64,000 nucleotides of DNA from Opitutia bacterium (GTDB lineage: Bacteria > Verrucomicrobiota > Verrucomicrobiia > Opitutales > Opitutaceae). The position numbers and the translations under genes are program-made. Every line of letters begins with the position of its first letter. Position 1 is the stretch's first letter. The notes beneath the pieces were generated by a model. The model was given only the letters and a program-made list of their open reading frames with translations. It did not search any database and was not told the origin of the DNA. Below, one piece after another: positions 26,369 to 35,810 of this stretch. The stretch is taken from contig JACPIT010000005.1 of the NCBI GenBank assembly GCA_016187945.1, forward strand, positions 186,001 through 250,000, given 5' to 3'.

Positions 26369-27205
26369 TTACCGCTCGCGTCCGACCAAAAACCGCAACA
26401 CGTCCGGCAATCGCGCGGCCCAAGCGCGCTCGCTGTGCTCGGCGCCGGCGATCTCGCGATACTCGAGGTCCGCGCCCTGCGTCCAGCCTTTAGCCACGAG
26501 CGTGTCGCGGAAAAGTTGCGCCACTTCCCAGCCCGGCTCCGCCGTGCCCATGTCGAGCCAGAGGCGGACGTCGAGCTTGCGCGGCAGACGCGCGAAATCG
26601 CGCAGCGCGACGCGGTCGTCCCACCACAGCGACGGCGAGAGCGCCGCGACGTTGCCGAACACGCGCGGATGCCAGAGACCGAAGTAGAGCGAGACGAGCC
26701 CGCCCATCGACGAGCCGACGATCGAGGTCGTGCGCGGGCCGGGCAGCGTGAGGTAGCGCGCGTCGATGAAGGGCTTCAGCTCGGTCTCGACGAAGCGCGC
26801 GTAGCGTTTCGCGTCGCCCGCGCTGCGGAGCTTCGCGCCGTCCATGCCGTCGTAGTCGGCGCGCGTCGGCGTGTATTCGTCGATCCGGTGCACGCCGGTG
26901 TTGGCGATGCCGACGAGGATCGGCGGCACGATTTCGCGAGCGCGCAGGAGTTTTTCCGCCGTCTCGCCTGCCGCCCAGGCGACGCCGCCGAACGCGGTCT
27001 TCGGGTCGAAGATGTTTTGCCCGTCCTGGAAATAGATCACGGGATGCCGCCGCCGTGGATCGCCGTAGCCCGGCGGCGTCCAGATCGTGACGTCGCGGCT
27101 GTTGCGGAAAATCCGCGAATGAAACCGCGCGAGCACGCGGAGCTGCGGCGCGCGTTGGACGCGGCGGGAGCGGAGGGCAAGAGGTCGGCGTTCGGGAGCA
27201 GGCAT
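26369..27205 (-). CDS. Esterase of the alpha/beta-hydrolase (esterase D/Fes-like) family
   Basis: 278 residues. The core reads RDVTIWTPPGYG, PVIYFQDGQNIFD, and the nucleophile elbow TSIVGSSMGGLVSLYFG with its Ser. The acid is likely the Asp in WLDMGTAE, and the closing His is in GAEHSERAW. This is the layout of PF00756-type esterases that act on siderophores, acetyl groups or feruloyl groups. No signal peptide is evident; the first 25 residues are basic and not conserved, so the true start may be internal. It converges on the GH5 gene and may work on plant-type polysaccharide esters. Confidence 0.8.
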   Translation of the reverse strand: MPAPERRPLALRSRRVQRAPQLRVLARFHSRIFRNSRDVTIWTPPGYGDPRRRHPVIYFQDGQNIFDPKTAFGGVAWAAGETAEKLLRAREIVPPILVGIANTGVHRIDEYTPTRADYDGMDGAKLRSAGDAKRYARFVETELKPFIDARYLTLPGPRTTSIVGSSMGGLVSLYFGLWHPRVFGNVAALSPSLWWDDRVALRDFARLPRKLDVRLWLDMGTAEPGWEVAQLFRDTLVAKGWTQGADLEYREIAGAEHSERAWAARLPDVLRFLVGRER

Positions 27206-27367: not shown

Positions 27368-27489
27368 CCCTGATTTCTCGGCGCACGCGGCCTGAAAAAC
27401 TTCGGGGGTTCTCCTCCGCGCCGCGGCTTGCACCCGCCCCTCCCGCGCGTATGCAGGAAGGGCACACCCCCTGCTCCCGCCCACCCTGC

Positions 27490-28212
27490 ATGCACGAGCA
27501 ATACGTCCGCTGGTATACGCCGCACCTGAGTCGGGACTTTGAGATGCTCGTGTTCGGCCACGCGGGCATGCCGGTGATCCTGTTCCCCACGTCGCTCGGC
27601 CGGTATTTTCAAAACAAGGACTTCGGCCTCGTCGGCTCCGTCGCGCACCTCGTCGACGCCGGCCGCGTGAAACTCTACTGTCCCGACGGCATCGACGAGC
27701 AGAGCTGGTATAACAAATCCATCCATCCGGCCGATCGCGTGAAAACGCACATGGCCTACGAGCGCGTGATCCTGCACGACGTCGTCGCGCGCGCGCAGCA
27801 CGAGACCGGTCGCAGCCGGATCGCCGTCGCCGGCGCGAGCTTCGGCGGGTATCACGCGATGAACTTCGCGCTGCGTCACCCGGACGTCGCGGCGTATTGC
27901 GTGAGCCTCAGCGGCGCGTTCGACATCCGCTCGTTTCTCGACGGCTACTACGACGACAACGCCTACTTCAACAACCCCGTCGACTACCTGCCCAATCTCG
28001 GCGACCCGTGGTTTCTCGAACACGTTCGGCGCATGGGCATCATCCTCGGCACCGGCGAGCACGACATCTGCCGCGACCGCAACCACCACCTCTCGCGCCT
28101 CCTCAACGCGAAAGGCATCCCGCACTTCCTCGACGACCGTCAGCGATGCGGTCACGACTGGAACTATTGGCGCGACATGTTTCCGCATTACCTTTCCCTC
28201 CTCCACACCTGA
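27490..28212 (+). CDS. Esterase-like alpha/beta hydrolase, first gene of the amide-ligase cluster
   Basis: 240 residues from the ATG at 27490 (MHEQYVRWYTPHLSRDFEML). The nucleophile Ser lies in IAVAGASFGGYHAMNFA, and the likely catalytic His is in RCGHDWNYWRDMFPHYL at the C-terminus. There is no signal peptide. It belongs to a group of small cytoplasmic esterase-like proteins which, as far as I recall, are often found beside carboxylate-amine ligase and ATP-grasp genes. Here it begins the codirectional series ATP-grasp, YbdK-like ligase, aminopeptidase. Its role may be to release or edit a product ester; this is inference. Confidence 0.8.
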   Translation: MHEQYVRWYTPHLSRDFEMLVFGHAGMPVILFPTSLGRYFQNKDFGLVGSVAHLVDAGRVKLYCPDGIDEQSWYNKSIHPADRVKTHMAYERVILHDVVARAQHETGRSRIAVAGASFGGYHAMNFALRHPDVAAYCVSLSGAFDIRSFLDGYYDDNAYFNNPVDYLPNLGDPWFLEHVRRMGIILGTGEHDICRDRNHHLSRLLNAKGIPHFLDDRQRCGHDWNYWRDMFPHYLSLLHT

Positions 28213-28247
28213 CGCACCCGCCGCGACCGGCACGAAGCCATCACCCG

Positions 28248-28286
28248 AATCTTTCTCTTTCCTCTTTCTCTTAATCTTTCTCTCTC
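28248..28286 (+). repeat. Pyrimidine-rich repeat, single arm
   Basis: A C/T-only stretch with the pattern CTTTCTCTTTCCTCTTTCTC then TTAATCTTTCTC. Paired inverted copies of the same sequence lie at 30608-30718 and 47518-47625. Confidence 0.75.
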
Positions 28287-28289
28287 GTT

Positions 28290-28377
28290 TGTCATCGCGA
28301 GCCCGACGTAGTCGGGCGTGGCGATCCAGCAATCTAGCTGGCTGGATTGCTTCGTCGCCCCGCTCCTCGCAATGACA
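28290..28377 (+). repeat. MITE-like inverted repeat element (TGTCATCGCGAG...CTCGCAATGACA)
   Basis: An 88-bp element with near-perfect 12-bp ends. Internal inverted pieces are CCCGACTA-type arms and GCGATCCAG/CTGGATTGC. The same wording (TGTCATTGCGAG, GTGGCGATCCAG, CTGGATTGCTTCG) is a widespread intergenic repeat in unrelated bacteria. It sits in the leader of the ATP-grasp gene. Confidence 0.8.
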
Positions 28378-28419
28378 GGTTCGAGAAGGCGCCACACCAC
28401 AACTCAACCCGCTCTCCCC

Positions 28420-29400
28420 ATGAAAAAAATCGGCATCCTCCACGGCAAGGAACGCACTTTCCCGCACGCGCTCATCGAACGCATCAACTCCCTCAACGAG
28501 CCCGGCATCGTCGCCGAGCCGGTGAACATCAACCAAGTCGCGCAAGGCGCGCCGTCGCCCTACGCCGTCATCCTCGACCGCATCTCGCAGGACGTGCCGT
28601 TCTACCGCGCGTATCTGAAAAACGCCGCGCTCAACGGCACCGCCGTCGTCAACAACCCGTTCTGGTGGTCCGCCGACGAGAAATTTTTCAACAACTGCCT
28701 CGCGACCAAACTCGGCGTCGCCGTGCCAAACACCGTCATCCTGCCCTCGAAGGATCACCCCGCGGATTGCAGCGCGGAGTCGTTCAGCAATCTGGCGTTC
28801 CCCTTGGATTGGGACGGCATCTTCAGCTACATCGGCTGGCCCGCGTATTTCAAACCGCACTCGGGCGGCGGCTGGAAAAACGTCTACAAGGTCCACAACC
28901 CCGACGAATTTTTCAAAGCCTACGCCGAGACCGGCCAGCTCGTGATGCTGCTCCAGTCCGAGGTGCAATTCGACGACTACTACCGCTGCTACTGCATCGG
29001 CGGCACCGATGTCCGCATCATGCCCTACGAGCCGCGCAACGCCCATCACCTGCGCTACGTCGTCGACCGTCCGCCTGCCGCGCCCGCGTTGCTCGAGCGC
29101 ATCAAGCGCGACGTCCTCACGCTGAATCAGGCACTCGGCTACGATTTCAACACCGTCGAATTCGGCGTGAGCAACGGCGTCCCCTACGCGATCGATTTCT
29201 GCAACCCCGCGCCCGACGCCGACCGCAACTCCGTCGGCGAGGAAAATTTCAAATGGGTCGTCGACGCCGCGGCCCGGATGCTCGTCACCCGCGCCAAATC
29301 CCACCGCGACGGCGCCGACAACCTCACCTGGGGCAAATACGTCCAAGCGAGCGCCGCCGGAAAATTCATCGGCGCCGCGACGGCGGCGAAGAAAAAATAA
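28420..29400 (+). CDS. RimK-like ATP-grasp ligase
   Basis: 326 residues. The ATP-grasp fold is indicated by WPAYFKPHSGGGWKNVYKV (nucleotide-binding Lys and Gly-rich loop), the metal-binding part FNTVEFGVSNGVPYAIDFCN, and acidic residues beyond it. ATP-grasp ligases join a carboxylate to an amine through an acylphosphate. The substrate is unknown. It is the second gene of a codirectional cluster with an esterase, a glutamate-cysteine-ligase-type enzyme and an aminopeptidase, so a peptide-like small molecule is a reasonable guess. The ATG at 28420 begins the conserved sequence; the frame upstream crosses a repeat. Confidence 0.8.
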   Translation: MKKIGILHGKERTFPHALIERINSLNEPGIVAEPVNINQVAQGAPSPYAVILDRISQDVPFYRAYLKNAALNGTAVVNNPFWWSADEKFFNNCLATKLGVAVPNTVILPSKDHPADCSAESFSNLAFPLDWDGIFSYIGWPAYFKPHSGGGWKNVYKVHNPDEFFKAYAETGQLVMLLQSEVQFDDYYRCYCIGGTDVRIMPYEPRNAHHLRYVVDRPPAAPALLERIKRDVLTLNQALGYDFNTVEFGVSNGVPYAIDFCNPAPDADRNSVGEENFKWVVDAAARMLVTRAKSHRDGADNLTWGKYVQASAAGKFIGAATAAKKK

Positions 29401-29484
29401 CCTCCGTCCGTGCCCCACCGCGGAGGTGCGTAGGCCACCGCGCCTTCTCATCCTTCATCCATCATTCCTCATCCGTCGATCGCC

Positions 29485-30606
29485 ATGCCCACGCGCAAAA
29501 AATCCCACACCTTCACCCTCGGCATCGAAGAAGAGTTCCAGATCGTCGACCCCGTCACGCGCGAGCTGAAGTCGCACATCGAGGAGATCATCGAGGGCGG
29601 CAAGATGATCCTGAAGGAGCGCGTGAAACCCGAGATGCATCAGTCGGTCGTCGAAGTCGGCACCGACATTTGCCACGACATCGCCGACGCGCGCCGCTCC
29701 GTCACCGGCCTCCGCACCGACCTCGCGCGCCTCGCCCGCTCGCAAAATCTCCGCATCGCCGCCGCCGGCACACACCCGTTCTCGCACTGGATCGACCAGA
29801 AAATTTCCCCCGGCGAACGCTACGCCGGCGTGATCAACGATCTCCAGCAAGTCGCGCGCGCCAACCTCATCTTCGGCCTGCACGTGCACCTCGGCATGCC
29901 CGACCGCGAGACCGCGATTCACCTGCAAAACACCGCGCGCTACTTCCTGCCGCACATCTTCGCGCTCTCGACCAACTCGCCGTTCTGGGTCGGCCGCGAC
30001 ACCGGCTACGCGTCGTATCGCCTGCAGATTTTTCAGCGCTTCCCGCGCACCGGCATCCCCGACCTCTTCGAATCGGTGAACGAGTTCGACGACTACGTGA
30101 ACCTGCTCGTGAAGACCGGCTGCATCGATAACGCCAAAAAAATCTGGTGGGACATCCGCCTGCACCCGCTCTTCGGCACACTCGAATTCCGCATGTGCGA
30201 CATCCCGATGCGCGTCGACGAGACGATCTGCCTCGCCGCCATCATGCAGGCCGTCATCGCGAAGCTCTACAAGCTACACCGGCAAAACATGAGCTTCCGC
30301 ACCTACCGCGCCCGCCTCATCAACGAGAATCGCTGGCGCGCCGCCCGCTACGGCATCAAGGGCAAGATGATCGATTTCGGCAAACAGGAGGAAGTCGAGA
30401 CGCGCAGCCTCATCGCGGAACTCCTCGAGTTCATCGATGACGTCGTCGACGAACTCGGCTCGCGCAAGGAGATCGACTACGTCCAGACGATCCTCGCCCA
30501 AGGCACCGGCGCTGACCGCCAGCTCGCCGTCTTCGAGAAGACGAAAGACCTCAAAACCGTCGTCGACTACATCATCTCCGAAACCCACCACGGCCTCCCG
30601 CTCTGA
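29485..30606 (+). CDS. Carboxylate-amine ligase, GCS2/YbdK family
   Basis: 373 residues with the family start FTLGIEEEFQIVDPVTREL, the glutamine-synthetase-like catalytic sheet (IFGLHVHLGMPD with metal ligands), RLHPLFGTLEFRMCD and RYGIKGKMIDFG. These are hallmarks of the YbdK branch of glutamate-cysteine ligase type 2. E. coli YbdK has weak gamma-glutamyl-cysteine ligase activity, but most relatives act on unknown substrates. It lies 84 bp after the ATP-grasp gene. A pyrimidine-rich inverted repeat begins two bases after its stop. Confidence 0.9.
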   Translation: MPTRKKSHTFTLGIEEEFQIVDPVTRELKSHIEEIIEGGKMILKERVKPEMHQSVVEVGTDICHDIADARRSVTGLRTDLARLARSQNLRIAAAGTHPFSHWIDQKISPGERYAGVINDLQQVARANLIFGLHVHLGMPDRETAIHLQNTARYFLPHIFALSTNSPFWVGRDTGYASYRLQIFQRFPRTGIPDLFESVNEFDDYVNLLVKTGCIDNAKKIWWDIRLHPLFGTLEFRMCDIPMRVDETICLAAIMQAVIAKLYKLHRQNMSFRTYRARLINENRWRAARYGIKGKMIDFGKQEEVETRSLIAELLEFIDDVVDELGSRKEIDYVQTILAQGTGADRQLAVFEKTKDLKTVVDYIISETHHGLPL

Positions 30607-30607
30607 G

Positions 30608-30718
30608 TTAATCTTTCTCTTTCCTCTTTCTCTTAATCTTTCTCCTTCTCATCGCGTGCTTCGCCGTCTTTCCGTCCGAGCCGGAGAAAGAGAAAGATTG
30701 AGAGAAAGAGGAAAGATT
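30608..30718 (+). repeat. Pyrimidine/purine inverted repeat pair
   Basis: An all-C/T arm of about 42 nt (repeating TCTTTCTCTTTCCTC units) is followed by an approximately 30-nt GC-rich centre and an all-A/G arm that is its reverse complement. The layout is the same as at 47518-47625. Confidence 0.85.
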
Positions 30719-30816
30719 CACCGAACACCTCCCGCACCTTGTATTCCGACGCTCCCCGCACCACGCCGCCCTCTCCGGCGTTCCGCCCTCAGCCCTCCGC
30801 GCTCAGCTCTTCACCC

Positions 30817-31836
30817 ATGCCCGCCGCCACGCTCCCAAAAACCTTCGACCCCGAGCTGACGCCCGGCGCGCGCAACGCGATCCACATCTGCCTCGCGCTG
30901 AAAAAGCACGAGCGCATGACGATCATCGCCGACAATGCCTGCGCCGAGATCGCCGCCGCGCTCGTCGCCGAAGTCGAGCAAACCGGCGCCGCCTACGAAG
31001 TGTTTATCCTCGAGGACCACGGCCCGCGTCCGCACCGCGACATGCCCGCCGCCATCCTCGAGCACCTCGCGCAATCGCAGGTCTCGATCTACGCCTGCAT
31101 CACCCAAACCGGCGAGCTCCGCACGCGCATGCAGATGATGGACGTCATCAACCCGCGCAAGATCCGCCACGGGCACATGGTGAACATCAACAAACAGATC
31201 ATGCTCGAAGGCATGCGCGCCGACTTCCTCGCTGTCGACGCCCTCTCGCAAAAGCTGATCGAAAAATGCCGCCGCGCGAAACGCGTCACGTGCAAGACCG
31301 CCGCCGGCACCGGCTACGTCGCCGAACTTTCGCAATCTCTGAAGTGGGTGAAAACCTCCGGCCTCATCTCGCCGGAAAAATGGGGCAACCTGCCCGGCGG
31401 CGAGATCTTCACCTCGCCGTTCAACTCGAACGGCCGCTTCGTCGTCGACGGCGTCGTGGGCGATTACCTCTGCCAGAAATACGGCGACATCGCCGCCACG
31501 CCGCTGACGATCGACATCAAGGACAACCGCATCGCCGGCCTCGCGTGCGCGAACCAGGAACTGCTCCGCGAGTTCGACGCCTATTGTCACACCGACGAGA
31601 ACTCGAACCGCGTCGGCGAATTCGCCATCGGCACGAACCTCGCCTGCACGCGCATCATCGGCCACATCCTGCAGGACGAAAAGCTCCCCGGCATCCACAT
31701 CGCCTTCGGCCACCCGTATAGCGAACACACCGGCCAGCCGTGGAAAAGCACGACCCACATCGACTGCGTCGGGAGAAACTTCGACATCTGGCTCGACGAC
31801 GAACAAGTGATGGCGAAGGGCCAGTTCCTGATCTAG
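30817..31836 (+). CDS. M29-type (leucyl/AmpS-like) aminopeptidase
   Basis: 339 residues resembling the metallo-aminopeptidase T/AmpS group in fold and motif placement: an opening HICLALKKHERMTIIAD, a GGEIFTSPFNSNGRFVVDG segment (metal-binding Glu), EFAIGTNLACTRIIGHILQDEKLPGIHIAFGH-type C-terminal metal site with Glu and two His, and WKSTTHIDCV. The ATG at 30817 starts the conserved part. In this cluster a peptidase could mature or recycle the amide product. Only two bases separate its stop from the next ATG, so it is cotranscribed with the signal peptidase gene. Confidence 0.8.
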   Translation: MPAATLPKTFDPELTPGARNAIHICLALKKHERMTIIADNACAEIAAALVAEVEQTGAAYEVFILEDHGPRPHRDMPAAILEHLAQSQVSIYACITQTGELRTRMQMMDVINPRKIRHGHMVNINKQIMLEGMRADFLAVDALSQKLIEKCRRAKRVTCKTAAGTGYVAELSQSLKWVKTSGLISPEKWGNLPGGEIFTSPFNSNGRFVVDGVVGDYLCQKYGDIAATPLTIDIKDNRIAGLACANQELLREFDAYCHTDENSNRVGEFAIGTNLACTRIIGHILQDEKLPGIHIAFGHPYSEHTGQPWKSTTHIDCVGRNFDIWLDDEQVMAKGQFLI

Positions 31837-31838
31837 CT

Positions 31839-32390
31839 ATGCAATCGCGTTGGCGCGCCATAGGTCTGTCGGTAGGTGCTGCGGTGATCGTCATTGCAGT
31901 AGCACGCCTCTGGATAGTTGATTTCTATCGGCAATCCAGCCGCTCGATGTCGCCGCTAATTGCGCCTGGAGAGGTCTTCTGGGGAAACAAAGTAGCCGTT
32001 AGGTTCTCTGGCGGGTTTGTTCGTGGCGACGTGATCATCTTTAAGCAGCCGGTGGAGGATCGCACTGAATTCTGGGTTATGCGCATCGTCGGCTTGCCCG
32101 GAGACATCATCGAAACGGCGGGCGTGAAAGTTTCGATTAACGGAAACCCCATTGCGCACACTACGATCGGGAGTGTGGACGGAAATCTGCGAATCCTTGA
32201 GAAAATTGACGGTCGCTCTCATGAAATTCTCGTTTCGCAAGCGGAGGCGCCGATCTCGCGCAATGTTGTAGTGAAAGTGCCGGCAGACAGTTTTTTCGTC
32301 ATGGGCGACAACCGGAGTCTGGCCTTTGATAGCCGATACATCGGAACAATTCCTCGGGAAAACCTGGTCGCGCTCTGCTTTCGCCGATGA
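31839..32390 (+). CDS. Signal peptidase I-like protein with Met in place of the catalytic Lys
   Basis: 183 residues with one N-terminal membrane helix (about 7-27). The nucleophile box is SRSMSPLIAPGE (Ser36), and the closing box GDNRSLAFDSRYIG is intact. The general-base box reads WVMRIVGLPGD, so the position of the usual Lys (KR.IGLPGD) is Met81. It may be a variant enzyme using another base or an inactive relative. The codons are visibly less GC-rich than those of the neighbours, suggesting transfer. It starts two bases after the aminopeptidase stop, and its TGA overlaps the ATG of a truncated copy of the 33013 gene. Confidence 0.8.
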   Translation: MQSRWRAIGLSVGAAVIVIAVARLWIVDFYRQSSRSMSPLIAPGEVFWGNKVAVRFSGGFVRGDVIIFKQPVEDRTEFWVMRIVGLPGDIIETAGVKVSINGNPIAHTTIGSVDGNLRILEKIDGRSHEILVSQAEAPISRNVVVKVPADSFFVMGDNRSLAFDSRYIGTIPRENLVALCFRR

Positions 32391-32470
32391 TCCCCGCCCT
32401 CCGCCAGTGCTATAACGCCGCGTTCATCGACGCCCGCTACGCCGCCCCCGCGATCCGACCATCCGTGTGA
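32387..32470 (+). pseudogene. Truncated duplicate of the 5' end of the gene at 33013
   Basis: The first 60 bases from the ATG at 32387 match the first 60 bases at 33013 at 53 positions (MIPALRQCYNAAFIDARYAA against MIPALRQRYNAAFTDTRYAA). Similarity then ends, and the frame runs into a dispersed repeat and a stop after 27 codons. It is the remnant of an interrupted or duplicated gene, with the GxxExxY cassette between the two copies. Confidence 0.8.
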
Positions 32471-32574
32471 TCCGTGCAATCCGTGGTTCAATTTCTTTCT
32501 TCCTCCGCTGCGCGCTCTAGCCGCGCTCTCACGCTCTGGTTTTAACCACGGATTTCACGGATAACACGGATCAT
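32458..32574 (+). repeat. ATCCGTG-type inverted repeat pair, upstream flank of the GxxExxY gene
   Basis: The arm with ATCCGTGTGATCCGTGCAAT then CCGTGGTT is mirrored at 32541-32574 by AACCACGGATTTCACGGAT and ACACGGATC. The second arm ends at the ATG of the GxxExxY gene. Further copies lie at 32939-32972 and 35703-35810. Confidence 0.85.
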
Positions 32575-32935
32575 GCTGCACGAGAATATCACCGAGAGCG
32601 TCATCGGGGCGGCGATGAAGGTGCTGAATGAGCTCAAGCCGGGCTTGGACGAGAAACTCTACGAGCGCGCTCTCGTGATTGAGCTGACCAGGCGCGGTCA
32701 CAAGGTGGACCAACAACACCCCTTCGTGGTCCGCTACGACGGTATCGAAATCGGCACGCTGGTCCCCGACCTCATCGTTCACGACGCGGTCATCGCAGAT
32801 CCGAAGGTCGTCACCGACTTCAACGAAAGCCACATCGCCCAGATGCTCGGCTACCTGAACATCACCGGCCTGCACGTCGCCCTCCTCCTTAACTTCAAGC
32901 ACTCCGACCTCCGCTGGAAGCGCGTCGTCCGCTGA
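32573..32935 (+). CDS. GxxExxY family protein
   Basis: 120 residues with the defining N-terminal pattern ITESVIGAAMKVLNELKPGLDEKLYERALVIEL (GxxExxY is here GLDEKLY) and the family end FNESHIAQMLGYLNITGLHVALLLNF. The fold is thought to relate to PD-(D/E)XK nucleases; the function is unknown. Such genes occur in multiple dispersed copies in Verrucomicrobiota and Planctomycetota. It is enclosed by ATCCGTG-type repeats on both sides and splits two copies of the 5' end of the next gene, so it looks like a mobile or inserted cassette. Confidence 0.9.
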   Translation: MLHENITESVIGAAMKVLNELKPGLDEKLYERALVIELTRRGHKVDQQHPFVVRYDGIEIGTLVPDLIVHDAVIADPKVVTDFNESHIAQMLGYLNITGLHVALLLNFKHSDLRWKRVVR

Positions 32936-32938
32936 AAC

Positions 32939-32972
32939 CCATCCGTGTCATCCGTGTAATCCGTGGTTAAAA
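32939..32972 (+). repeat. ATCCGTG-type repeat, downstream flank of the GxxExxY gene
   Basis: The arm ATCCGTGTCATCCGTGTAAT then CCGTGGTTAAA begins three bases after the GxxExxY stop, in the same orientation as the first arm at 32458. Confidence 0.8.
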
Positions 32973-33012
32973 ACCAAAACGCCCGCCCGCGGCATCACTC
33001 CCGCCGCCGCCC

Positions 33013-34263
33013 ATGATTCCCGCCCTCCGCCAGCGCTACAACGCCGCGTTCACCGACACTCGCTACGCCGCTTTCACGCGCGAGCTGAACCGCTCGATGT
33101 ATTGGCCGGTGGACTTTCGCGTCGCGGAGTCGCCGCTCTTCCTCGACGAACCCACGACCCGCGCGCTCGTCGACGCCGCCACCGACATCACGCGCCAGCT
33201 CGCCACGCCCGAGTTCCGCCAGCACGCCGCCAACGCCGTCCCCGCCAACCTCTCCGTCCCGCACGAGACTGAGTTCCCGCATTTCCTCTGCATCGACTTC
33301 GCGCTCTGCCACGACACCGACGGCCGCGTCCTCCCACAGCTGATCGAGCTGCAAGGTTTCCCCACCGTCGCCTGCTGGCAGGTTCTCCTCACGAACACCT
33401 ACCGCGCGCACTTCCCGGAAATCCCGCCCGAATTCACGCCCTACTTCGCCGACGTAGCGCAGGCGTCCCGCCTGCCCTCCGGTTCCTCCCCGCCCACGCC
33501 CGCCGAGCAGGACGATCACTACCTCGACGAACTCCGCTCCGCCATCCTCGGCGACTGTCTGCCCGAGAACGTCGTCCTCCTCGAGATCGAGCCCGAGAAG
33601 CAGAAGACGCGCATCGATTTCGCCTGCACGCACAGCCTCCTCAACGTCCGCCCGATGTGCCTGTCGAAGATCCGACAACGCGGCCGCCAGCTCGTGTATT
33701 TCTCGGGCGGACGCGAGGTGCCGATCCACCGCCTCTACAACCGCGTCATCTTCGACGAGCTTTTGCGCAAGCCCGACTTCAAGCCCGGCTTCAATCTCCG
33801 CGACGACCGCCTCGACGTCCAGTGGGTCAGCCACCCGAACTGGTATTTCCGCATCAGCAAACACACGCTGCCGTTCCTGAAGAGCCGCTACGTCCCCGAC
33901 TGCCGCTTCGTCAGCGAACTCGCCGGCAACATTCCCGCCGACCTCGAGAACTACGTTCTGAAACCGCTCTACTCCTTCGCCGGCCTCGGCGTCGACATCG
34001 CGCCCACTCGCGAAAAAATCGCCGCGCTCTCGAATCCCGCCGAGTGGCTCCTCCAGCGCAAGGTCGCCTACGCGCCGATCCTCGCCACGCCCGACGGCCC
34101 CGCCAAAGCCGAAGTGCGCCTCATCCTCGTCGGCGACGGCACGGAGATGCCGCGCCTCGTCAACCAACTCGTCCGCCTCACGAAAGGCGCGATGCACGGC
34201 GTCGATTTCAACAAAGGCAAAACCTGGGTCGGCGCCAGCGCCGGCTTCCATCCGCCACCCTGA
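33013..34263 (+). CDS. ATP-grasp-like conserved hypothetical protein
   Basis: 416 residues with no signal peptide. Features suggest an ATP-grasp relative: LIELQGFPTVACWQ, then YVLKPLYSFAGLGVDI (nucleotide-binding Lys with a Gly-rich loop), WLLQRKVAYAP and AEVRLILVGDG near the C-terminus. Residues about 147-163 (VAQASRLPSG...) are encoded by a dispersed inverted repeat (33454-33475) that also occurs between genes at 55150-55171, so this loop is probably an in-frame insertion. Position suggests it belongs to the amide-ligase cluster, with its 5' end duplicated at 32387. The substrate is unknown. Confidence 0.7.
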   Translation: MIPALRQRYNAAFTDTRYAAFTRELNRSMYWPVDFRVAESPLFLDEPTTRALVDAATDITRQLATPEFRQHAANAVPANLSVPHETEFPHFLCIDFALCHDTDGRVLPQLIELQGFPTVACWQVLLTNTYRAHFPEIPPEFTPYFADVAQASRLPSGSSPPTPAEQDDHYLDELRSAILGDCLPENVVLLEIEPEKQKTRIDFACTHSLLNVRPMCLSKIRQRGRQLVYFSGGREVPIHRLYNRVIFDELLRKPDFKPGFNLRDDRLDVQWVSHPNWYFRISKHTLPFLKSRYVPDCRFVSELAGNIPADLENYVLKPLYSFAGLGVDIAPTREKIAALSNPAEWLLQRKVAYAPILATPDGPAKAEVRLILVGDGTEMPRLVNQLVRLTKGAMHGVDFNKGKTWVGASAGFHPPP

Positions 34264-34275
34264 GCGCGTCTTTCT

Positions 34276-34352
34276 TGTAGGAGCGGCTTTACGCCGCGAT
34301 TCGAGCGTGATGCCACTCGCGATGACCATCGCGGCGTAAAGCCGCTCCTACA
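34276..34352 (+). repeat. REP-like inverted repeat pair (GTAGGAGCGG family)
   Basis: Both arms are present as at 14152, just downstream of the ATP-grasp-like gene. Confidence 0.85.
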
Positions 34353-34374
34353 GTCACGCGAACGCGGGCTCGGA

Positions 34375-34481
34375 GTAGCGCGGTGCTTTAGCCCGCGCTG
34401 AAACTTTCCCAGCGCGAGCGAAAGCACCGCGCTACTTTTCGCCAGCCGTGCAGCCATGTAGGTTGCCCGCTCGCGGGCAAC
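34375..34481 (+). repeat. Two further inverted repeats between convergent genes
   Basis: AGTAGCGCGGTGCTTT is mirrored by AAAGCACCGCGCTACT (34375-34436), and GTTGCCCGC-TC-GCGGGCAAC forms a compact 9-bp-arm hairpin at 34462-34481. With the REP pair at 34276 they fill the whole gap between the convergent ATP-grasp-like gene and mobA. They may act as a two-way transcription stop, though no T-run is present. Confidence 0.65.
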
Positions 34482-35687: not shown

Positions 35688-35702
35688 GTCAGGGACAGAG
35701 GT

Positions 35703-35810
35703 TGAACCACGGATTTCACGGATAGCACGGATTGAATCGAGAATCTGCGGCAACGAATTCTTCGCGAGAGCACAGCGCACCATCCGTGTCATCCGTGCAA
35801 TCCGTGGCTA
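35703..35810 (+). repeat. ATCCGTG-type inverted repeat pair
   Basis: AACCACGGATTTCACGGATA then GCACGGATT at 35703 is mirrored by ATCCGTGTCATCCGTGCAAT then CCGTGG near 35781-35810. It is the same family as the flanks of the GxxExxY gene, here without a gene inside. It separates cobA from the MOSC gene. Confidence 0.85.

Follow-up and report, generated by a model that had tools for sequence, protein, structure and literature searches.

Three ligases of three types, a GCS2 enzyme, a RimK-like enzyme and an enzyme resembling GspS, YgiC and eukaryotic glutathione synthetase (GSS), are encoded together in a stretch of 64,000 nucleotides from an Opitutaceae genome (the window), and it is nearly certain that they and their companions act in one pathway. 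We infer that this pathway probably assembles, stepwise and without the ribosome, a soluble glutathione-like metabolite of the gamma-glutamyl-peptide type. The cluster is formed by est, grasp1, gcs2, m29 and grasp2, all located on the plus strand and with open reading frames; these are the five codirectional genes that a preliminary description had named as esterase-like, ATP-grasp, YbdK/GCS2, M29-type and second ATP-grasp-like. Two genes inside the interval (S26 and GxxExxY) and one just outside it (estB) had been overlooked; estB belongs to the conserved unit, and the other two do not. The features of the region are:

26369..27205, minus strand: estB, second PF00756 esterase, divergent and upstream (Pfam Esterase, E 1.8e-30)
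27490..28212, plus strand: est, PF00756-like alpha/beta hydrolase of ~240 aa (Pfam Esterase PF00756, E 2.3e-10)
28420..29400, plus strand: grasp1, RimK/LysX/Ddl-fold ATP-grasp ligase (by predicted structure and conserved residues)
29485..30606, plus strand: gcs2, YbdK-family (PRK13515) GS-fold carboxylate-amine ligase (by NCBIfam and Pfam scores and GhExE signature)
30817..31836, plus strand: m29, M29-fold metallohydrolase (PF02073, E 2.6e-14, residues 154-308)
31839..32390, plus strand: S26, signal peptidase I-like gene outside the conserved unit (by Pfam and NCBIfam; absent from the relatives' loci)
32382..32445, plus strand: partial copy of the 5' end of grasp2, 64 nt, 89% identical to 33008-33071
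32573..32935, plus strand: GxxExxY (PDDEXK_3) gene outside the conserved unit (by Pfam and NCBIfam; repeats on its flanks)
33013..34263, plus strand: grasp2, ATP-grasp ligase of GspS/YgiC/eukaryotic glutathione-synthetase fold (by predicted structure and conserved residues)

By curated cut-offs and signature, gcs2 is a YbdK-type carboxylate-amine ligase with a putative gamma-glutamyl:amine ligase activity: it scores 552.7 bits against PRK13515 (cut-off 371) and 220.3 bits against PF04107 (cut-off 21), and it matches E. coli YbdK (1r8g) with an E value of 3.9e-49. The Mg/ATP signature GhExE, as defined in a passage of PMC2588565, reads GIEEE at residues 13-17, and G13, E15 and E17 are at least 97% conserved in 67 sequences. 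No further GCS2 match was found in the genome of the window, which is 95.7% complete.

For grasp1, the Pfam matches were at chance level only (E 0.1 and 0.11), and NCBIfam gave none. Its model adopts the predicted fold of RimK, LysX and Ddl; in the structural comparison RimK came first (Z 20.1, rmsd 3.2, 264 residues), followed by PsnB (Z 18.0), Ddl (17.8) and synapsin (17.6), and given that these scores are close and that Foldseek ranked Ddl first, the substrate of grasp1 is not set by the fold alone. Ddl is also the nearest family by sequence profile (E 5e-4). K88, K145, K153, R189, E247, D259 and N262 are at least 97% conserved (78 sequences), and with roles assigned by eye they match the template of the peptide-ligase assemblage given in section 5 of PMC4431377, K88 being the linker lysine, K145 the strand-2 lysine and E247 the acidic residue, together with R189 and with D259-x-x-N262 as a variant of ExN. 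In a passage of the same source, the R2K clade is described as having a second lysine in the RAGNYA loop and no linker lysine, and as proposed protein modifiers; by the same visual assignment grasp1 has the loop lysine, K153, but keeps K88, which places it outside this clade. The R2K_2 profile matches grasp1 of the window with E 0.11 only, and up to E 1 it gives weak matches to 30 of 41 grasp1 members (best E 9.6e-4).

For grasp2 of the window nothing was listed in Pfam up to E 10, and this includes the glutathionylspermidine synthase family PF03738 (GSP_synth). That family is matched by 2 of 30 grasp2 members, at best with E 0.0026, a level that plainly unrelated families in that list reach as well, and CP_ATPgrasp_1 by one of the 30 (E 0.035). 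The structural model is confident (pLDDT 89.7, pTM 0.89); its top Foldseek match is 3n6x (E 1.2e-13), a putative glutathionylspermidine synthase, and the best structural matches are YgiC (Z 25.9), YjfC (25.4) and GspS (23.3), the VIA-align superposition with YgiC covering 342 of its 383 residues at an rmsd of 3.5. Identity to the aligned structures of the GspS/YgiC/glutathione-synthetase fold group is 8-15%, and support for the fold at the sequence level is weak (YgiC profile, E 0.061). The invariant residues in 30 sequences include D95, E112, Q114 and K317.

The M29 assignment of m29 is based on its Pfam score (53.3 bits, gathering score 27) and on E196, E268, H294, H314 and D316, which are invariant in 11 aligned sequences (the window and 10 of 12 M29-bearing loci) and which we take to be the E, E, H, H, D metal ligands of M29 enzymes. 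The first three align with AmpS and the last two with NicX; by sequence the nearest solved chain is the dioxygenase NicX (5.2e-5), followed by AmpS (0.0056), and an aminopeptidase activity is only putative. In 9 of the 54 loci described below, m29 occupies the position before grasp2 where Bacteroidota have a class-I glutamine-amidotransferase-like (GATase-like) gene, and the two were never found together (80 loci, tblastn). In the GATase-like protein C108, H211 and E213 are invariant in 16 of 16 sequences. The best reading of this exchange, which is a concrete clue to the chemistry, is that the two are interchangeable hydrolases for trimming or recycling. The est product carries a GASFGG motif and conserved S117, D192 and H222 (19 sequences), and a start at 27490 fits the length of its relatives better than one at 27451; in estB, S166, D234 and H257, at least 97% conserved in 62 sequences, likely form a Ser-Asp-His triad.

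Conservation was analyzed by tblastn in the 80 loci most similar to the query, out of at least 590; of these 80, 54 have enough flanking sequence. In these 80 the gene order recurs in Verrucomicrobiota, Ignavibacteria and Bacteroidota, so the genes are kept together in relatives, and the shared amide-ligation pathway put forward in the preliminary description is strongly supported by this recurrence, by the genome-wide co-occurrence of the ligases and by their correlated distances. Among the 54 loci, gcs2 is present in 51, estB in 45 (on the minus strand, upstream of grasp1), grasp2 in 24 and est in 16. The median gap is 2 nt between gcs2 and grasp2 (4 loci) and 20 nt between the GATase-like gene and grasp2 (9 loci). 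Since grasp2 is absent nearby in 30 of the 54 loci, the cluster may consist of two modules; the trees of grasp1 and grasp2 conflict on two loci, L035 and L047.

At the genome level, grasp1 and grasp2 showed identical distributions, in 10 of 57 genomes and in 9 of 194 Verrucomicrobiota genomes (the window's own included in both). A sample of 198 genomes was taken from the phylum to which G238, a genome with a Cyclobacteriaceae locus, belongs; the name Bacteroidota was assigned to this phylum in the present analysis. Here grasp1 was found in 72 genomes (>200 bits; of 75, G250, G291 and G420 were left out as partial matches of ~20 bits), grasp2 in 60 (G291, with 31 bits over 25 positions, left out), GCS2 in 61 (6 of 67 below the cut-off left out) and all three in 54. 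One of the six, G249, lies just below the cut-off (334.5 bits) and has neither of the other ligases. Partial sets comprise ten genomes with a lower-scoring grasp1 alone, four without only GCS2, four without only grasp2, two without only grasp1 and one with GCS2 alone. Co-occurrence gave Fisher p values of 7e-34, 1e-32 and 2e-38, inflated in that the test ignores relatedness, and the ligase distances correlate with r 0.775-0.924, a level reached in 0 of 999 permutations (Mantel test, likewise inflated by relatedness). Most unlinked cases fall on different contigs of draft genomes and give no distance; on the same contig, grasp1 lies more than 6 kb from GCS2 in seven genomes and from grasp2 in four, and the near-pair count is one too high, given that the grasp2 match of G310 is split across two contigs and its weaker piece, near grasp1, was entered. 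Ligases retained together even at such distances indicate that their co-occurrence is not mere linkage and point to a shared product under selection. The clustering is not due to chance: that these are independent genes and accidental neighbours is exceedingly improbable, and although the unrelated S26 and GxxExxY genes do sit in the cluster of the window and est is patchy, the co-occurrence counts in effect refute it, the genes going together in two phyla and, in some genomes, doing so even when widely separated within a single contig.

The recurrent neighbours scanned with Pfam are an outer-membrane TonB-plug protein, a sigma factor, a beta-barrel-like protein, a deformylase, RuvX, UbiA, an MFS transporter, chorismate synthase, BatD, a copper-type ATPase, an AraC-type regulator and two more with no Pfam match, and no clue to the building blocks was found among them. 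In the gaps of 60-2500 nt between est, grasp1, gcs2, M29/GATase and grasp2, frames opening at any M, V or L residue were compared, and no small ORF was widely conserved; among the six groups listed, the largest were Uma2 pieces, frames antisense to these and, in three loci, a hydrolase. No widely conserved candidate for a precursor-peptide or tag gene thus came from these gaps, and a small metabolite is favoured over a protein tag as the product. The preliminary description had suggested the synthesis and trimming of a small peptide-like metabolite or tag; shared amide ligation has stood, and trimming is backed only indirectly, by the M29/GATase exchange in the slot before grasp2.

A substrate cannot be read off a ligase fold, and the following order of steps is what we infer. 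GCS2 would use ATP to activate a carboxylate group, most likely that at the gamma position of glutamate as first substrate, and couple it with either an amine or an amino acid; the RimK/LysX/Ddl-like grasp1 would then add an amino acid, and the GspS/YgiC/eukaryotic glutathione-synthetase-like grasp2 would make the final amide bond, by which an amino acid or an amine caps the C-terminal carboxylate. The hydrolase, of M29 type here and of class-I-GATase type in Bacteroidota, may remove or recycle one residue, perhaps the gamma-glutamyl group, and the PF00756 esterases may release, deacylate or turn over the small-molecule product.

Other products were weighed against this one. Grasp2 could cap a peptide with a polyamine, for instance spermidine, in the manner of E. 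coli GspS, YgiC and YjfC, which are its closest structures; YgiC and YjfC have been reported as peptide-spermidine ligases (Pederick 2023, cited in a passage of PMC12568646), and a grasp1 relative occurs in seven of the eight Bacteroidota genomes with nspC over the cut-off (hypergeometric p 0.004). However, those eight are the only ones among 198 with this carboxyspermidine decarboxylase gene, the polyamine route examined; it is present in two (G369 and G433) of the 54 three-ligase genomes, when 2.2 are expected by chance, and the same fold serves amino-acid acceptors in glutathione and homoglutathione synthetases and in Cp1B, so that we consider polyamine conjugation unlikely. It seems quite improbable that the product is a glutathione analogue serving as principal low-molecular-weight thiol. 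Glutathione is indeed made in two steps, by a GCS2 and a glutathione-synthetase-fold enzyme, only one GCS2 was found in the window's genome, and bshC was absent in 14 of 14 Verrucomicrobiota genomes searched (nine with the cluster, five without); but a third ligase is superfluous for glutathione, and in the Bacteroidota sample bshC is over the cut-off in 192 of 198 genomes, compared with 54 for the three ligases. Since this bacillithiol gene is near-universal there, the product of the cluster is not their replacement for bacillithiol.

Ligation of amino acids onto a protein or ribosomal precursor, as by RimK, Pup ligation, the Anbu operon or graspetide ligases, is suggested by the fold of grasp1, nearest to RimK and then to the graspetide ligase PsnB, and by the weak R2K_2 matches of its family, a clade proposed to modify proteins. 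The linker lysine missing in R2K members is kept in grasp1, the gaps searched hold no widely conserved small ORF, and neither an Anbu peptidase nor Alpha-E or transglutaminase was found among the recurrent neighbours scanned; we regard this alternative as having a low probability. PuuA and PuuD are the GS-fold ligase and class-I-GATase-like pair of the Puu pathway, and gcs2 with the GATase-like protein parallels them, which would fit a breakdown of amines or amino acids under gamma-glutamyl protection, with glutamate added by GCS2 and removed by M29/GATase. Such a role leaves two extra ligases unexplained and the recurrent neighbours scanned include no oxidoreductase or dehydrogenase, which makes it rather improbable. 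Returning to the stepwise synthesis of a gamma-glutamyl-peptide-like compound, we tentatively suggest that it could be a new metabolite or cofactor that is neither glutathione nor bacillithiol, made by three ligases of two unrelated folds and serving a shared function in about a quarter of the sampled Bacteroidota and a few Verrucomicrobiota.

Linked amidoligases are already a known kind of system, of which this three-ligase combination is a variant; Iyer and colleagues reportedly surveyed in 2009 ATP-grasp and GS-fold ligases linked with peptidases, which fits the surveys mentioned in the preliminary description. Glutathione and homoglutathione biosynthesis, by gamma-glutamylcysteine ligase and a eukaryotic-type glutathione synthetase, shares with the cluster a GCS2-fold ligase and a GspS/glutathione-synthetase-fold ATP-grasp; the cluster has in addition a hydrolase, a pair of esterases and a third ligase, of RimK type. 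RimK, LysX and ArgX have the fold of grasp1 and its conserved ATP-grasp lysines and arginine; in contrast, grasp1 is 12-18% identical to them in the structural rows, lacks a significant Pfam match, is nearest to Ddl by profile and has the extra loop lysine of the R2K clade. E. coli YgiC, YjfC and GspS resemble grasp2 over nearly the whole length (Z about 22-26), and differ in that grasp2 of the window lacks a Pfam match and nspC is rare in the hosts. A passage of PMC5666114 describes, in the Anbu operon, a putative peptide-ligase ATP-grasp beside a peptidase; here too an ATP-grasp lies beside a putative peptidase and 3n6x is the top match of grasp2, but gcs2 passes ordinary YbdK-type models, CP_ATPgrasp_1 is found in a single grasp2 member, and Anbu, Alpha-E and transglutaminase are missing among the recurrent and window neighbours scanned with Pfam. 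In the E-64 pathway (Cp1B and an amide bond synthetase), an enzyme similar to hGSH synthetase works in tandem with a second ligase (passage of PMC12568646); its GSS-fold ATP-grasp, 9cjn, has a Z of 21.7 to grasp2, whereas that pathway is fungal and its partner enzymes belong to other classes. According to parts of PMC4431377, linked peptide ligases often perform successive ligations in peptide-derived metabolites, and in a passage of PMC2588565 glutathione-like peptide synthesis is inferred for a different GCS2-like family, whose neighbour is a thiol peptidase of GATase-like type. No description of the present gene combination was found in the open-access literature searched, which is no proof of absence, nor is it mentioned in passages of the graspetide survey PMC8939145.

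All three ligases thus occur in 54 of 198 Bacteroidota and patchily in Opitutaceae. For neither of the window's two ATP-grasps, however, does Pfam or NCBIfam give a significant match. The set is present in named isolates, among them Larkinella soli, Pedobacter cryoconitis, Arcicella rosea and Flavihumibacter stibioxidans, so the product could be identified in such hosts. In the window no RNA families or tRNAs were found, and promoter and terminator scans gave counts about equal to those in shuffled sequence. A defence role was rejected, PADLOC giving no match for six proteins; the PHROGs search returned a single weak match, for estB, and neither grasp1 nor grasp2 matched any of 72,556 plasmid records.

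The two genes between m29 and grasp2 were rejected as cluster members, being found in 0 (S26) and 1 (GxxExxY) of the 54 loci. The S26 gene has a GC3 of 0.595, compared with 0.86-0.89 for the surrounding genes, and among loci L001-L101 it is present only in the window's own. The GxxExxY gene, additionally found in L013, L015, L025 and L026, is likely an insertion, and the 64-nt partial copy of grasp2 is read as an insertion scar.

All five codirectional genes that the preliminary description had placed in a cluster were found in the window, and the cluster is real, but two genes lying inside the interval and a second esterase gene next to it had been overlooked. The genes are arranged as follows:

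26369-27205, minus strand, estB, second PF00756 esterase
27490-28212, plus strand, est, PF00756 esterase
28420-29400, plus strand, grasp1, RimK/LysX/Ddl-fold ATP-grasp
29485-30606, plus strand, gcs2, YbdK-type carboxylate-amine ligase
30817-31836, plus strand, M29-like gene
31839-32390, plus strand, signal peptidase I-like (S26) gene, between M29 and grasp2
32573-32935, plus strand, GxxExxY gene (PDDEXK_3), between M29 and grasp2
33013-34263, plus strand, grasp2, GspS/YgiC/glutathione-synthetase-fold ATP-grasp

The starts of est (27490) and grasp1 (28420) are those that agree best with the relatives. The host genome is Opitutaceae-like; in the grasp1 tree, the rows closest to the window are MAGs of Opitutia and Candidatus Didemnitutus. 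Outside the cluster there are ordinary genes (PqiA-like, GH5 cellulase, MobA-like, MOSC, tetrapyrrole methylase, and molybdopterin oxidoreductase).

GCS2 scores 552.7 bits on PRK13515 (cut-off 371), and its match to E. coli YbdK has E 3.9e-49; its family keeps the GhExE signature. Grasp1 has no significant match in Pfam or NCBIfam; its AlphaFold2 model (pLDDT 85.4) matches RimK with Z 20.1 (rmsd 3.2, 264 residues), LysX and ArgX with Z 17.8-19.3, the graspetide ligase PsnB with 18.0, and Ddl with about 17-18. Ddl is on top in Foldseek, and is reached by the grasp1-family sequence profile at E 5e-4. From residues assigned by eye on the template of PMC4431377 (section 5), grasp1 retains the linker lysine K88, the strand-2 lysine K145, R189 and E247, shows the ExN motif in the variant form D-x-x-N, and carries an additional loop lysine, K153. 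The extra loop lysine is shared with the R2K clade, which is weakly matched by 30 of 41 grasp1 members (best E 9.6e-4); however, since R2K proteins lack the linker lysine that grasp1 appears to retain, we do not place grasp1 in R2K. For grasp2 of the window, Pfam lists nothing up to E 10. Its model (pLDDT 89.7, pTM 0.89) matches YgiC with Z 25.9 (rmsd 3.5, 342 residues), YjfC with 25.4, GspS with 23.3 and human glutathione synthetase with 22.9; the remaining members of this fold group go down to Z 19.3, and the row after is at 12.2. The grasp2-family profile finds YgiC at E 0.061, a weak support for the fold from sequence.

The two ATP-grasp genes occur in the same genomes: each is present in 10 of 57, the identical ten, and in 9 of 194 Verrucomicrobiota, the identical nine and a few kilobases apart (own genome included in both). 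A scan of genome contigs for grasp1 gave at least 590 relatives, mostly Bacteroidota among the best 80 that were kept. In the 54 of these 80 loci with complete flanks (2 kb or more upstream, 5.5 kb or more downstream), the genes near grasp1 are gcs2 (51), estB (45), grasp2 (24), est (16), a class-I glutamine-amidotransferase-like (GATase-like) gene (14), M29 (9), GxxExxY (1) and S26 (0). In a sample of 198 Bacteroidota genomes, grasp1 (counted over 200 bits) is present in 72, grasp2 in 60, PRK13515 (counted as GCS2) in 61, and all three in 54. Where grasp1 and GCS2 coexist (58 genomes), they lie within 3 kb in 38, more than 6 kb apart on one contig in 7 and on different contigs in 13; for grasp1 and grasp2 (also 58), the distance stays within 6 kb in 35 (among them G310, with a split gene) and is larger on the same contig in 4, and in 19 the two are on different contigs, cases in which an assembly break is indistinguishable from a real separation. 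Given the distant pairs on one contig, the ligase genes are at least sometimes retained together without being neighbours. Distances between the families correlate (r 0.775-0.924; 0 of 999 permutations as high). Incomplete sets count against a tight single unit: grasp1 and grasp2 without GCS2 (4), grasp1 and GCS2 without grasp2 (4), grasp2 and GCS2 without grasp1 (2), GCS2 alone (1), and a lower-scoring grasp1 alone in 10 Bacteroidota genomes, perhaps a subfamily with a different role. These solitary relatives (218-450 bits, in genomes without grasp2 or PRK13515) belong to G252, G258, G275, G279, G331, G340, G375, G379, G404 and G427; the carboxyspermidine decarboxylase gene nspC is over the cut-off in G258, G279 and G375.

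The co-occurrence of grasp1, grasp2 and GCS2 strongly supports the shared amide-ligation pathway that had been proposed, and because the three ligases occur together the cluster probably carries out ordered amide formation. According to a passage of PMC4431377, linked peptide ligases often perform successive ligations in the synthesis of antibiotics, siderophores and cofactors. The pair of GCS2 and a glutathione-synthetase fold has the logic of glutathione synthesis; unlike that pathway, the RimK-like grasp1 would add a third ligation. Linked amidoligases are already known as a kind; the present combination, which includes two ATP-grasp families that lack significant library matches, is a variation on it.

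A replacement thiol was rejected as the product in Bacteroidota because the bacillithiol gene bshC is over the cut-off in nearly all genomes (192 of 198). In Verrucomicrobiota bshC is missing from the 14 of 14 genomes searched, with or without the cluster, so the product may be a thiol there. The YgiC fold of grasp2 suggests a spermidine conjugate, a reading weakened by the fact that nspC is over the cut-off in only 8 of the 198 Bacteroidota, with 2 among the 54 three-ligase genomes, which is the chance level; nevertheless, 7 of the 8 nspC genomes have a grasp1 relative (p 0.004), and thus the grasp1 family may have a polyamine link. No widely conserved precursor or tag gene was found in the intergenic gaps searched, and none of the recurrent neighbours scanned indicates the building block.

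As a rule, the slot between gcs2 and grasp2 is filled by M29 in Verrucomicrobiota and, in 16 loci of Bacteroidota, by the GATase-like gene; M29 also occupies it in L035 and L076 (titled Ignavibacteria) and L047 (titled Bacteroidota), and four grasp2 loci (L052, L063, L065, L071) have neither. Among the best 80 of the at least 590 relatives, M29 is found in 12, the GATase-like gene in 16 and both together in 0; in the 24 flank-complete grasp2 loci (M29 in 9, GATase-like in 13) the zero overlap has p 4e-5 if loci are taken as independent, which they are not. PF02073 covers M29 residues 154-308. When the window's protein is aligned with those of 10 of the 12 M29-bearing loci, five positions (E196, E268, H294, H314, D316) show no variation. 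The closest solved chains by sequence are the dioxygenase NicX (5.2e-5) and then AmpS (0.0056); since the NicX alignment has M29 keeping two glutamates that NicX has lost, M29 is more likely a two-metal hydrolase than a dioxygenase. C108, H211 and E213 are kept in 16 of 16 GATase-like proteins. That two unrelated hydrolases occupy one slot suggests a common hydrolytic role and not ammonia supply; as a precedent, in the part of PMC2588565 that treats another GCS2-like family, a GATase-like thiol peptidase or gamma-glutamyl cyclotransferase adjoins it. In the grasp2 tree eleven M29-type rows cluster (support 97/95), and in the grasp1 tree L035 and L047 group with Ignavibacteria (87/82); as the trees differ on these two loci, parts of the cluster may have been transferred separately.

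S26 and GxxExxY are read as passengers. The S26 gene was found in none of the loci L001-L101 except the window's own, and its GC3 is 0.595 versus 0.86-0.89 in the surrounding genes, which together suggest a recent acquisition. At 32382-32445, overlapping the end of S26 with its stop, lies a 64-nt stretch that partially repeats the 5' end of grasp2 (33008-33071; 89% identity), which suggests an insertion. GxxExxY, which the same-genus relatives L013 and L015 carry too, as do L025 and L026, has inverted ATCCGTG repeats on both sides; repeats of this type, in both orientations, lie at 32459-32489, 32541-32571 and 32939-32969, and again downstream at 35702-35732 and 35780-35810. Just 3' of grasp2, at 34276-34352 and 34374-34436, there are intergenic inverted repeats, perfect or nearly so, of 25-27 nt. 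Two intergenic gaps of the cluster contain an identical pyrimidine-rich 35-nt repeat (28248-28282 and 30610-30644), and the latter gap also has a close copy in inverted orientation (30684-30716), a pattern resembling a small mobile repeat. Between grasp1 and gcs2, a Uma2-like gene (by eye) is present in 7 of the best 80 of the at least 590 grasp1 relatives (L032, L034, L040, L059, L062, L079 and L099).
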